Origin: an uncultured Nitrosomonadales bacterium
GTDB taxonomy: Bacteria > Pseudomonadota > Gammaproteobacteria > Burkholderiales > Gallionellaceae
NCBI GenBank assembly: GCA_903885165.1
Contig: CAISHO010000126.1
Span: 1-55,671 of the forward strand
DNA length: 55,671 bases
Direction of reading: 5' to 3'
In this document: positions 4,873 to 52,463 of the stretch, piece after piece
How positions within the stretch are numbered: position 1 is the first letter of the stretch
How the letters are laid out: each line of letters opens with the position of its first letter
Program-made: the position numbers and the translations under genes
Notes under the pieces: generated by a model
What the model was told of the DNA's origin: nothing
The model's input: the letters and a program-made list of their open reading frames with translations, nothing else
The model's database searches: none

Positions 4873-6624
4873 TCAAGGCTGAAAACGCTTGATTACCGCG
4901 CGCAGCATCACATTATCAGGATTTGCCTTAAGACTATTCTGCCAAAGCTTTACAGCCTCCTCCTTATCGCCGCGCGCCCAAAGCGCCTCACCTAAATGCG
5001 CGGCAATTTCAGGATCCGGATTACCCGCATAGGCACGGCGCAACATAGCTACACTCTCATCGAGCCTGCCGCTGCGGAAATATCCCCATCCTACGCTATC
5101 CATAATCGCCAGATCGTCGGGTGCCAGTTGCAAGGCTTTCTCGACCAACTGCACCGCCTCCGGGATACGCACATTGCGTTCGAGCAAACTGTAACCTAAC
5201 GCATTGTAGGCGTGGGCGTGATCCGGTTTGATTTTGATCAGCTTGCGTAGCAACTGCTCGGCCACCTCATAATGACCCAGCATATCACCCAGCATCGCTG
5301 CCTCATACATTAACTCGGGCTGATTGGGCAGCTTGATCAGACTTTGCTGCAAGAACTGATAGGCCTCCCTTTGCTGATTGGTATCGCGCAACAATCGTGC
5401 TTCGATCAACACTAGCTGCAAATGCTGCGCGTCGGTCGAGGCTTGAATTTTCTGTAAGAATAGTCTGGCCTCGGCGTTCTGCCCCTTTTTGCTCAGCAGA
5501 AACACCACTCGCAACTGAGCCGGAAACAGATATTCACCCGAATTCACCTCGCGATAATGCAATAACGCCTCGACCTCATCTTCTTTGGCCTCGCTCAATT
5601 GGCCTAAGAAATACGCCACACCATCCCGCCCCTGGCCGTGTTTACCTAACGCCAGCCTCAACTGAGCTTCAGCCCCCGACAAATCGTTCAGTTGCAGAGA
5701 AATCAGCGCCACGGCGAACGCCAGATCGACGTTATCGGGACTGGCATCCGCTAAAGTCTGAAACTCTTTACGCGCCAGCGAATATTGCTTCTGCTCCAGC
5801 AGCGTACGCGCGTATTGCAGACGGATGTCGTCAGCCTGTGGATGACGAGCCAAATAGGTCGATAACAGCAACAGACTCTGTTCAGGCCTTTTTTTACGCA
5901 GCAGCTGCGCCTCCAGCGACACGACAAAATCCCAGTCCGGCTTAATGCGACTCGCCTCGCGCACTTCATCTAATGCAAGCACCTCATCCCCGGCCGCCTG
6001 CGCCAACTGCGCCACCATCCAGTGTGCCTCGGCCACTTTAGGATAAGGACGGGCTAAATCGCGCACCAGTTGCAGTGCAGCCTTTTTATCCGGATACGCG
6101 GAGAACAGCGGGTAGATTTGCAAAAATATCGGCCCGACATCCGGCTCGGACGACTTGAATACCTTAATAAACTCAGGACGCGCCTCATCCAGACGGCCTC
6201 CGCGCAGTAGTAAGGAAGACAACACGCGCGGCGTCATTCCTGCGCTTGGGTCAATTTCCTGCCAGAAACGGAACGCATCGACCGTTTTATTCATATCGCC
6301 CGATTCCAACGCCAATTGCGCTGCGCGTTTAGCCAGACGAGGATCCCGTGTTTTGCGGGCAATATCCGTACTGCCTTCCACTGCCAACGCCTTGTGGCCG
6401 CGCTGATTGGCAAACTCGGTGAGCAATAACTCATAAAGCAACTCGCTATCGAGTTCGACATCTGGTAGCGGCGGACCAACTTCGGCGACAGGTTCAATCG
6501 TCTTTTCCGTGACAGACTCAGATTGCGCAACCGGTTTCACCGGGATAAGCTCGGTTTGTTTCGGCGCATGCGCGCAGCCGGCAAGCAGCAAACTGCCCAT
6601 AAGCAGATATTTAAAAGTGTTCAT
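4873..6624 (-). CDS. Tetratricopeptide-repeat lipoprotein
   Basis: Lipobox LLAGCAH; TPR repeats such as HAHAYNALGYSLLERNVRIPEAVQLVEKALQLAPDD. Confidence 0.88.
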   Translation of the reverse strand: MNTFKYLLMGSLLLAGCAHAPKQTELIPVKPVAQSESVTEKTIEPVAEVGPPLPDVELDSELLYELLLTEFANQRGHKALAVEGSTDIARKTRDPRLAKRAAQLALESGDMNKTVDAFRFWQEIDPSAGMTPRVLSSLLLRGGRLDEARPEFIKVFKSSEPDVGPIFLQIYPLFSAYPDKKAALQLVRDLARPYPKVAEAHWMVAQLAQAAGDEVLALDEVREASRIKPDWDFVVSLEAQLLRKKRPEQSLLLLSTYLARHPQADDIRLQYARTLLEQKQYSLARKEFQTLADASPDNVDLAFAVALISLQLNDLSGAEAQLRLALGKHGQGRDGVAYFLGQLSEAKEDEVEALLHYREVNSGEYLFPAQLRVVFLLSKKGQNAEARLFLQKIQASTDAQHLQLVLIEARLLRDTNQQREAYQFLQQSLIKLPNQPELMYEAAMLGDMLGHYEVAEQLLRKLIKIKPDHAHAYNALGYSLLERNVRIPEAVQLVEKALQLAPDDLAIMDSVGWGYFRSGRLDESVAMLRRAYAGNPDPEIAAHLGEALWARGDKEEAVKLWQNSLKANPDNVMLRAVIKRFQP

Positions 6625-46901: not shown

Positions 46902-47816
46902 ATGGAAGAGAAATTCAATTTCACACTGGTCGGCCTGTTCGTGCTGGTGTTGGGCGCGGCCCTGATCGGTGGCGCACTGTGGCTGGGCAGCGACCAATCC
47001 TACAGCAAGATTTACGACACTTACCAGATCTACATTAAGGAATCGGTGTCCGGCTTAAACCTCAACGCCCCGGTGCGCTATCGTGGTGTGGAAGTCGGAC
47101 GGGTGCAGAAAATCACTCTCGCACCGGATAACGTCGAACAAGTGCAATTAACGCTCGGCATCGAACGGGGCACACCCATCAAAACGGATACGTTTGCCGT
47201 ACTCCAGACGCATGGACTGACCGGATTGACCTTTGTCGAACTGGCCGGCGGCAGCCGTGAAGCGACAGCACTCAAAGCCGGTAGAGGCGAGCCGTTCCCG
47301 ACCATTCAAACCGGCCCCTCGCTAATGATGCGGCTGGATACCTCAGTCTCAACCTTACTGACTAACCTCAACCGCAGCTCGGAAAACATCAACGCTCTGC
47401 TGAACGAAGACAATCGCCGCGCTATCAGCCATACGCTGGCAGATATCGAAATACTGTCCCATACCCTCGCGGCGCGACGAACCACGATAGATTCGGGACT
47501 GAGCAACGCGGCGCGTACCATGGAGAATACCGCGCAGTTGAGCGCGCAATTACCGCAACTGGCAGCGCGTCTAGGGCACAGTGCGGACACTGTTGATCAC
47601 ATGGCGGGCGAGCTGGCGCGAGCTGCCGGCAGCACCCGTGCCACGATGGACAGCACCCGGCAGTTTGGCAGCGATGCCGCACCCGAGATGCAACAACTCC
47701 TGAACGAATTGCACGAACTGACCTCCTCACTCAGGCGAGTAAGCAGCGAAATCGAACAAAATCCTGCCGTACTCTTGCACGGCAGAGCTGCCGCAAAACG
47801 GGGACCGGGAGAATAA
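46902..47816 (+). CDS. MCE/MlaD family substrate-binding protein
   Basis: MEEKFNFTLVGLFVLVLGAALIGGALWLG; MCE domain YIKESVSGLNLNAPVRYRGVEVGRV. Confidence 0.92.
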   Translation: MEEKFNFTLVGLFVLVLGAALIGGALWLGSDQSYSKIYDTYQIYIKESVSGLNLNAPVRYRGVEVGRVQKITLAPDNVEQVQLTLGIERGTPIKTDTFAVLQTHGLTGLTFVELAGGSREATALKAGRGEPFPTIQTGPSLMMRLDTSVSTLLTNLNRSSENINALLNEDNRRAISHTLADIEILSHTLAARRTTIDSGLSNAARTMENTAQLSAQLPQLAARLGHSADTVDHMAGELARAAGSTRATMDSTRQFGSDAAPEMQQLLNELHELTSSLRRVSSEIEQNPAVLLHGRAAAKRGPGE

Positions 47817-47865
47817 TCATGGTTAGATGTGATATCAAAGTGTACACACACAATCATTTTTTTTG

Positions 47866-48100
47866 CCGGTGGCAGCCCGGCAGCTGGTTACCTTCTTTTG
47901 CATCGCCAAAAGAAGGTAACCCAAGAAAAGTCGACCCCGGTTTGCCGCGCCTTCGGCGTACCCTAGGTTGCCTGCAAACTAACGGGGCTGCGCAACTCGC
48001 CCTAGTTGGGCGCAAACGACACACCCAACTGCGGAGCTCAAACAGTGCTCGCCTAACAACACCGTTGTTTGCAATCAACCTTCGGCGGCGCACAGGGGTT
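47866..48100 (+). repeat. Long structured dispersed intergenic repeat, copy 1
   Basis: Shares GGCAGCCCGGC.GCTG.TTACCTTCTTTTGC.TCGCCAAA.GAAGGTAA...CGACCCC...CCGCGCCT.CGGCGT.CC with copy 2; perfect 14-bp hairpin 47887-47920. Confidence 0.75.
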
Positions 48101-48159
48101 AAGGGTGATACTGAACGCACACATGTATTCCCCGCTGAATTTCACATAGAGCAACAATC

Positions 48160-48741
48160 ATGAAAAAACGCTACCTATACATCTTTATCTTCCTGCTTGC
48201 CGGTTGTTCCGCCTTACAGGCGCCGCATACCGAGTACACCCATCTTTACCTGCTGGATGCCCAACCCACCACCACAGTCGGCACACAACACAACCGGGTA
48301 TTAGCGGTCAGCCCAACCACGGCACGCTCAGGCTACGACACGCCGCAAATCGCCTATCTGCGCCAACCGCTGGAACTGGAATACTTTGCGACGCACCGCT
48401 GGGCCGACACCCCGGCTCATATGATTAAACCCCTGCTGATTCAGACTCTGACACCAAAATATGCCGCCGTCGCCGCAGGTCAGGTCAGCGCCAATTTCAG
48501 ACTCGACACCGAACTGATCCGCTTGCAGCAGGATTTCACCGCGCAACCCAGTCGCGTGCAAATCACACTCAGGGCGCAATTGATAGATGTGCAAGAAAAG
48601 CGCATCATCGCCGTACGTGAATTCGATGCAACAGAACCTAGTGCCAGCGAAGATGCCTACGGCGGCGTACTGGCCGCTAACCGCGCAATGCTGAGAATTT
48701 TGACAAAACTTGCCGAATTCTGCGATGCAGAATCAAAATAA
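48160..48741 (+). CDS. ABC-type transport auxiliary lipoprotein (PqiC/DUF330-like)
   Basis: Lipobox LLAGCSA; YLLDAQPTTT...IAYLRQPLELEYFATHRWADTPAHMIKPLLIQTL. Confidence 0.85.
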   Translation: MKKRYLYIFIFLLAGCSALQAPHTEYTHLYLLDAQPTTTVGTQHNRVLAVSPTTARSGYDTPQIAYLRQPLELEYFATHRWADTPAHMIKPLLIQTLTPKYAAVAAGQVSANFRLDTELIRLQQDFTAQPSRVQITLRAQLIDVQEKRIIAVREFDATEPSASEDAYGGVLAANRAMLRILTKLAEFCDAESK

Positions 48742-52320: not shown

Positions 52321-52463
52321 AAGCCGGGGGCAGCCCGGCCGCTGATTACCTTCTTTTGCGTCGCCAAAGGAAGGTAATCGAAAAAAGGCGACCCCAGCTT
52401 ACCGCGCCTGCGGCGTTCCCTCGACTATCCTCAAACAAGTGGGGCTGAGCATGTCGCTCAACG
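52321..52463 (+). repeat. Long structured dispersed intergenic repeat, copy 2
   Basis: Aligns to 47866-48000; hairpin GATTACCTTCTTTTG (52344-52358)/CAAAGGAAGGTAATC (52365-52379). Confidence 0.75.

Follow-up and report, generated by a model that had tools for sequence, protein, structure and literature searches.

The structured repeat between two MCE-operon genes of the window, the whole 55,671-nucleotide stretch of DNA analysed here from an uncultured Nitrosomonadales bacterium, probably combines two kinds of mobile element. Judged from comparison of sequences, this copy is an ISL3-type MITE, and its body is an arm of probably swappable cassettes, most of which carry a single gene.

The element comprises 333 bp (47821-48153) between the stop codon of the MlaD-like ORF (47814-47816) and the start of the lipoprotein ORF (48160), the placement given in the earlier note. 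The limits proposed there, 47866-48100, approximate the core; the true element extends beyond them and includes terminal repeats and a target duplication. The 8-bp duplication reads ATAATCAT on the left and ACAATCAT on the right, with 7 of 8 positions matching (Table 1). The right ISL3-type terminal repeat is clear, and the left one is decayed (10 of 13 positions). In eight relatives, the MlaD-like and lipoprotein genes overlap or lie at most ~50 bp apart, and the element is absent. The insertion therefore opened a 343-bp gap between two otherwise tightly linked genes of the MCE operon. The insertion left both reading frames intact, as the left duplication contains the stop codon and the right one the start codon. 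The terminal repeats, the duplication and the uninterrupted junctions of the relatives identify the window copy as a non-autonomous MITE of ISL3 type, which bears out one candidate of the earlier note. The element has no transposase of its own, being too short at 333 bp and overlapped only by spurious ORFs, and no intrinsic terminator or promoter was found within it on the + strand.

Table 1. Features of the element, its core and its second copy, in window coordinates
Feature	Position	Strand	Remark
Left target-site duplication ATAATCAT	47813..47820	.	Includes the TAA stop of the MlaD-like ORF; 7/8 vs right copy
Whole insertion, ISL3-type MITE with one cassette arm, 333 bp	47821..48153	+	Junction uninterrupted in 8 relatives
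Left terminal repeat, decayed	47821..47834	+	GGTTAGATGTGATA vs consensus GGCTCTATGTGATT
Core (cassette arm), 234 bp	47865..48098	+	nhmmer/CM matches
P1 hairpin GCCGGTGGCAGCCCGGC	47865..47881	+	Counterpart of the palindrome standing alone at relatives' empty cassette sites
Pseudoknot	47873..47886	+	Loop 47873-47875 paired with 47884-47886; 99% paired; double changes in 2/3 pairs
P2 hairpin	47886..47921	+	15 perfect pairs; hairpin of the earlier note
P3, 5' strand CCCCGGTTTGCCGCG	47935..47949	+	Partner 48084-48098; closes the core
P5, 5' strand	47965..47985	+	Partner 48062-48081; subtype sequences differ, complementarity kept
P5, 3' strand	48062..48081	+	
P3, 3' strand GGCGGCGCACAGGGG	48084..48098	+	
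Right terminal repeat	48138..48153	-	Reverse complement TGCTCTATGTGAAATT
Right target-site duplication ACAATCAT	48154..48161	.	Provides the ATG start (48160) of the lipoprotein ORF
Second copy	52323..52457	+	5' part of an arm only, without recognisable terminal repeats

Two copies had been described, and both are real; the second shows the G-C to A-T compensatory change and the G-T wobble reported for it, and of the core it has the 5' part alone. The same genome (2.44 Mb, 151 contigs) has about 20 more copies, with 70-93% identity and many of them fragments. When aligned in one orientation, several copies have sequence in common outside the limits of the earlier note, TTCTATGTGATTT..AGTGGGT to the left and its inverse to the right, and copy L010 is flanked on either side by TAAATAAT, an 8/8 target duplication. 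MITEs in other genomes of the genus (L372, L377, L385) share the ends and the core and also have 8/8 duplications. The same ISL3-type ends, GGCTCTATGTGATTYRTAGTGG, are used in the window's genome by an unrelated short element with the perfect 8-bp duplications CTTAATCT and AACAGAAT at its flanks. A second short repeat family that lacks the core has the same ISL3-type ends (L033, L037, L032 and L036, on contigs C7, C99, C79 and C53 of G000), and two of its copies show perfect 8-bp duplications.

A candidate for the transposase with matching ends that the earlier note had proposed to look for is another copy of 1.26 kb (L389), where the same terminal repeats enclose ORFs matching HTH_Tnp_ISL3 and DDE_Tnp_ISL3 (PF01610, E 5e-39). 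However, this transposase is split into two ORFs, the copy has no matching duplication, and no ISL3 transposase was found in the window's own genome as assembled. The window element resembles ISL3-family insertion sequences and their derived MITEs in its terminal repeat GGCTCTATGTGATT.., its 8-bp duplication, the lack of its own transposase and the same-ended transposase copy in the genus. It differs from them in that its body is a captured cassette arm, present without ISL3 ends in other genomes, and not an internally deleted insertion sequence. Separately, a 527-bp element (L398:1524-1949) has ISL3-type ends, an 8/8 duplication and a DUF559 (nuclease-like) ORF; ISL3 ends may also serve as carriers of small genes, as in this case.

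The window region folds more stably than its shuffles, with z of -4.7 and -4.5 on the two strands and 0 of 200 shuffles as stable. The 14-bp hairpin originally reported (47887-47900 with 47907-47920 around CATCGC) is exact and gains one pair, G47886-C47921, to reach 15 bp. The minor stems CGCCC-TAGTT-GGGCG and AACAAC-ACC-GTTGTT had to be abandoned, as other copies do not keep them and their bases pair elsewhere; the comparative model pairs AGGTTGCCTGCAAAC..AACGG with CCGTTGTTTGCA..CAACCT, and AGTTGGG with CCCAACT. Among the arms, which are 196-256 bp long, 34 dereplicated copies were compared for P1, P2 and the three-pair pseudoknot. These helices were 95.1% paired, compared with 31-58% in slid controls. 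Double changes were found in 61 cells and in 20 in shuffles; kinship of the copies inflates these counts, and the slid controls are the safer comparison. P5 retains its pairing (27.8 vs 18.6 with swapped partners; 139 arms), despite wholly different subtype sequences. The covariation across the 34 copies supports selection on the folded form, as had been proposed from two copies, and the additional copies show strong compensatory changes that include the pseudoknot.

Selection on a fold may act on a transcript, and the earlier note had listed an RNA element among its candidates. The core would then be a structured non-coding RNA, either a regulatory RNA or a component of a ribonucleoprotein. 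The very stable fold, the compensatory changes with an H-type pseudoknot, and the complementarity of P5, which survives complete sequence change, are consistent with this. However, G-U pairs fill only ~5 of the 778 cells in the tested helices, vs 61 with double changes. On the + strand of P5, A-C mispairs (124) outnumber G-U pairs (61); judged by how the mispairs differ between strands, the + strand is not favoured. A search of Rfam 15 with the window element gave no match, even at E 5; furthermore, the arms are convergent pairs around unrelated genes, and no promoter is consistently directed into the arm. We consider the RNA explanation distinctly unlikely. Because G-U intermediates are nearly absent, a role of the fold at the DNA level is at least as likely as one in RNA. 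The rare G-U pairs in P1 and P2 and the A-C excess in P5 argue against a plain + strand RNA and are compatible with a structure in DNA or with correction templated by the hairpin.

A search of 40 relatives returned matches to the core as +/- pairs in one fixed orientation. The loci compared were 20 of these paired places and 111 further stretches of named genomes, most of which belong to Gallionella, Sideroxydans and Ferrigenium and a few to Rhodocyclaceae and Curvibacter. Using a profile of the core, adjacent cores were convergent in 72 cases and otherwise arranged in 7 before removal of duplicates; in the non-redundant set, 64 pairs were convergent and at most 5 were arranged in another way (p 8e-33). 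In the convergent orientation the 5' hairpins point outward, and divergent pairs were not found. The interval between the arms of a pair either is short, at ~0.1-0.35 kb, or measures 0.6-2 kb and holds a single ORF. Of the 48 gene-sized intervals, 47 had an ORF of 100 aa or longer and 42 had exactly one that reached 140 aa; the longest ORF covered a median of 77% of the interval. The 47 interval proteins fell into 44 clusters, and 13 of the 64 pairs held no gene. The comparison of these loci showed that the core corresponds to one arm of a larger paired, gene-bearing cassette type in related genomes.

In about half of the cassettes, the ORF is preceded on its own strand by the motif GATAGsCAAAACAATTCGACTCCGGTACATTGGAG, which lies 50-90 bp inside the arm. 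By the spacing TAGsCA-17-TACATT, this motif is a putative promoter. The motif includes a near-palindrome, CTCCGGTACATTGGAG (cassettes L068, L069, L117, L146 and others), which could be the operator for a common regulator. Neither a recombinase nor a transposase was found to accompany the arms regularly, be it as cargo or as a partner. Copies of an IS110-family transposase adjoin arms at L095, L140 and L251 (records of G043 and Ferrigenium straubiae KS03), and these arms all break at profile position 68, which suggests that the arm is a specific IS110 target.

The arrangement of the pairs also bears on whether the arms have any conserved function. They might be parasitic leftovers whose hairpins are kept by hairpin-templated repair, the convergent pairs being survivors of loss. 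Templated correction would suit the near absence of G-U intermediates, and many copies are indeed fragments; 13 of the 64 pairs hold no gene. However, convergent pairs occur and divergent ones do not, and selective loss leaves three features unexplained: the single ORF in each pair, the promoter-like motif aligned with it, and the different cargo at the same sites. We find this account hard to credit.

The cargo is rich in defence families, and a defence role is predicted from these families. Searches with Pfam and PADLOC identified Mrr restriction (PDC-S02), T5orf172, AbiJ_NTD4 (PDC-S32), Abi_alpha, a STAND-like ATPase (PDC-S59), RelA/SpoT (PDC-S33, E 3e-104), TIR/SEFIR (bSEFIR, 1e-47), HEPN, DUF4357 (PDC-S14, 2e-101) and Old/Gaj-like ATPases. 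A retron-type reverse transcriptase (RT-Toprim_I-C, 2e-163) is encoded at L081:1206-2965 in two ORFs with an apparent frameshift. DUF2971, DUF3800, DUF4238 and DUF4236 were also found, together with many proteins without any match.

Single, diverse and often defence-related ORFs with structured ends that resemble recombination sites recall the gene cassettes of integrons, and the arms could be taken for unusual attC sites. Identity with attC was ruled out, since the box order RYYYAAC..GTTRRRY occurs in 0 of 155 arms. In addition, each gene here lies between two inverted arms, often with the promoter-like motif, at scattered sites; integron cassettes carry one site each and stand in tandem arrays, and no integrase was found as cargo. 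An integron origin is extremely improbable.

The cassettes recur at particular sites whose cargo differs between genomes, namely folB-xerD, acuI, spoT/pirin, mutT, cobT and hemH. The folB-xerD junction is closed (58-203 bp) in six genomes, and in at least four more it is occupied by cassettes that differ in their genes; in the window's genome, an arm lies 2 kb from folB. A single copy of AACC-GCCGGGGGTAGCCCGGC-GGTT stands in two of the closed junctions; this is the hairpin found outermost at both ends of a cassette. Ten solo copies of this 17-bp outer palindrome were found in the genus. Because 9 of the 10 stand beside genes that flank cassettes in other genomes, compared with 2 of 30 control loci, the solo palindrome is the empty state of the cassette site, whether as a target or as a deletion scar between palindromic ends. 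Identity between arms at different sites and in different genomes is often 90-98%, and two arm subtypes can be mixed within one cassette. Both observations are as expected if arms recombine, and from these sequence patterns we infer homologous exchange through the arms. The outer palindrome suggests an end-specific step beyond homologous recombination.

The flanks outside the arms are more inverted-repetitive than random pairings (19.5 vs 11.6). Intergenic palindromes, GGCCGTTCGCCCTGAG..TCGAAGGG, GTAGGTTGGGT..ACCCAAC and GGGTGGGCAACAAGTTGCCCACC, form nested inverted repeats around or lining most cassettes (e.g. L068, L117, L351), and several of them match the published GTAG-headed REP form.

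These properties recall REPINs and BIMEs with RAYT transposases, which are intergenic inverted hairpin doublets with compensatory changes and excision-like footprints (PMC3116915, PMC2817692, PMC3733652), excision being recorded for REPINs (PMC3116915). The arms could accordingly be oversized REP- or REPIN-type elements moved by REP-associated tyrosine (Y1/HUH) transposases; this would fit the terminal hairpin, the inverted doublets, the nested inverted repeats outside the arms and the solo palindromes that look like excision products. A Y1_Tnp-like (RAYT-like) gene that scores under the Pfam threshold is located at L071:335-877, with mutT on one side and the left arm of a cassette on the other. 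However, no sampled cassette has a Y1 gene between its arms, and Y1_Tnp genes went undetected in 39 of the 106 genomes with arms; the association is weak (p 0.05), and a dependence of the arms on RAYT/Y1 transposases is not supported. The arms, at 200-240 bp, are several times longer than REPs of 20-40 bp, and they enclose one unrelated gene. They also do not have the REP form of a GT(A/G)G head with a short GC-rich palindrome of 20-40 bp, as GTAG occurs only within the P1 loop of some arms. We regard movement by such transposases as unlikely.

Two systems of Neisseria share other traits with the cassettes. In minimal mobile elements, a given pair of conserved genes flanks different whole-gene cassettes, which are apparently exchanged by homologous recombination (PMC3898611). 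Different whole genes between conserved flanks were also found here at folB-xerD, acuI, spoT and mutT. In contrast to those elements, all cassettes here have long inverted arms in common, and their outer palindrome is also the mark of an empty site. Correia elements are likewise intergenic and transposase-less with inverted ends, and they are 100-155 bp long with a TA duplication and 26-bp ends; the same source, in the part available, gives them no gene-bearing paired form like these cassettes (PMC3898611). REPINs with RAYTs and minimal mobile elements are the closest published kinds. The available parts of the literature on them (PMC3116915, PMC2817692, PMC3733652, PMC6006769, PMC3898611) do not describe single genes enclosed by structured inverted arms of 200 bp, with an empty site marked by a palindrome. 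A search of the open literature by sequence strings and by concept found no description of the cassette type; most subscription journals were outside its scope, and it is no proof of novelty.

The distribution was surveyed with a covariance model of the first 84 arm positions. Arms were detected in 106 of 300 genomes and 53 of 134 genera of the order, and in 66 of 369 genomes and 55 of 272 genera of the class. Convergent pairs, with and without genes, were also present in other families. The cassette type is widespread and apparently undescribed. The window element had no match among plasmids or phages; the second arm subtype gave one weak match among plasmids, on a 2.5-Mb Variovorax replicon, and none among phages. 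The only exact match to the arm pattern among 2.9 million viral contigs is in L321 (IMGVR_UViG_3300033513_000550), at 5632-5650.

Taken together, the reading of the window copy as a MITE with a cassette arm as its body would work as follows. Two arms with their 5' hairpins outward enclose a single gene, in many cases together with a conserved promoter-like motif for that gene. Fixed chromosomal sites differ between species in holding the cassette of one gene, that of another, or the 17-bp outer palindrome alone. In the most likely mechanism, the folded arms would act as ends at the DNA level, with the outer palindrome as the point of attachment or excision. Cassettes arriving as DNA from relatives would replace the residents via the near-identical arms, and single defence genes and other accessory genes would in this way be traded at standing sites. 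In the lineage of the window, one arm would have been captured between ISL3 ends and then spread as a MITE, an ISL3-family transposase presumably acting in trans to insert it into the 8-bp target at the MlaD/lipoprotein junction.

A broader proposal, to which we give not quite an even chance, is that mobile gene cassettes with such arms form a class of their own, new and without relation to integrons, transposons or REPINs. The folded inverted arms and the palindromic attachment point would bring genes, each with its promoter, singly into standing sites in many families of Gammaproteobacteria (in the GTDB sense). The class would serve as a platform for the exchange of anti-phage genes, with either an enzyme or recombination through DNA in its folded form as the driving force.

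Should the cassette reading prove right, a repeat commonly dismissed as intergenic noise, present in about one third of the sampled genomes of the order, would mark the sites and the trade of single defence genes. A search for paired arms would then be a direct handle for new defence genes, and the cassettes would offer a natural platform with empty and loaded states. It would also raise the question of which enzyme reads the folded ends.
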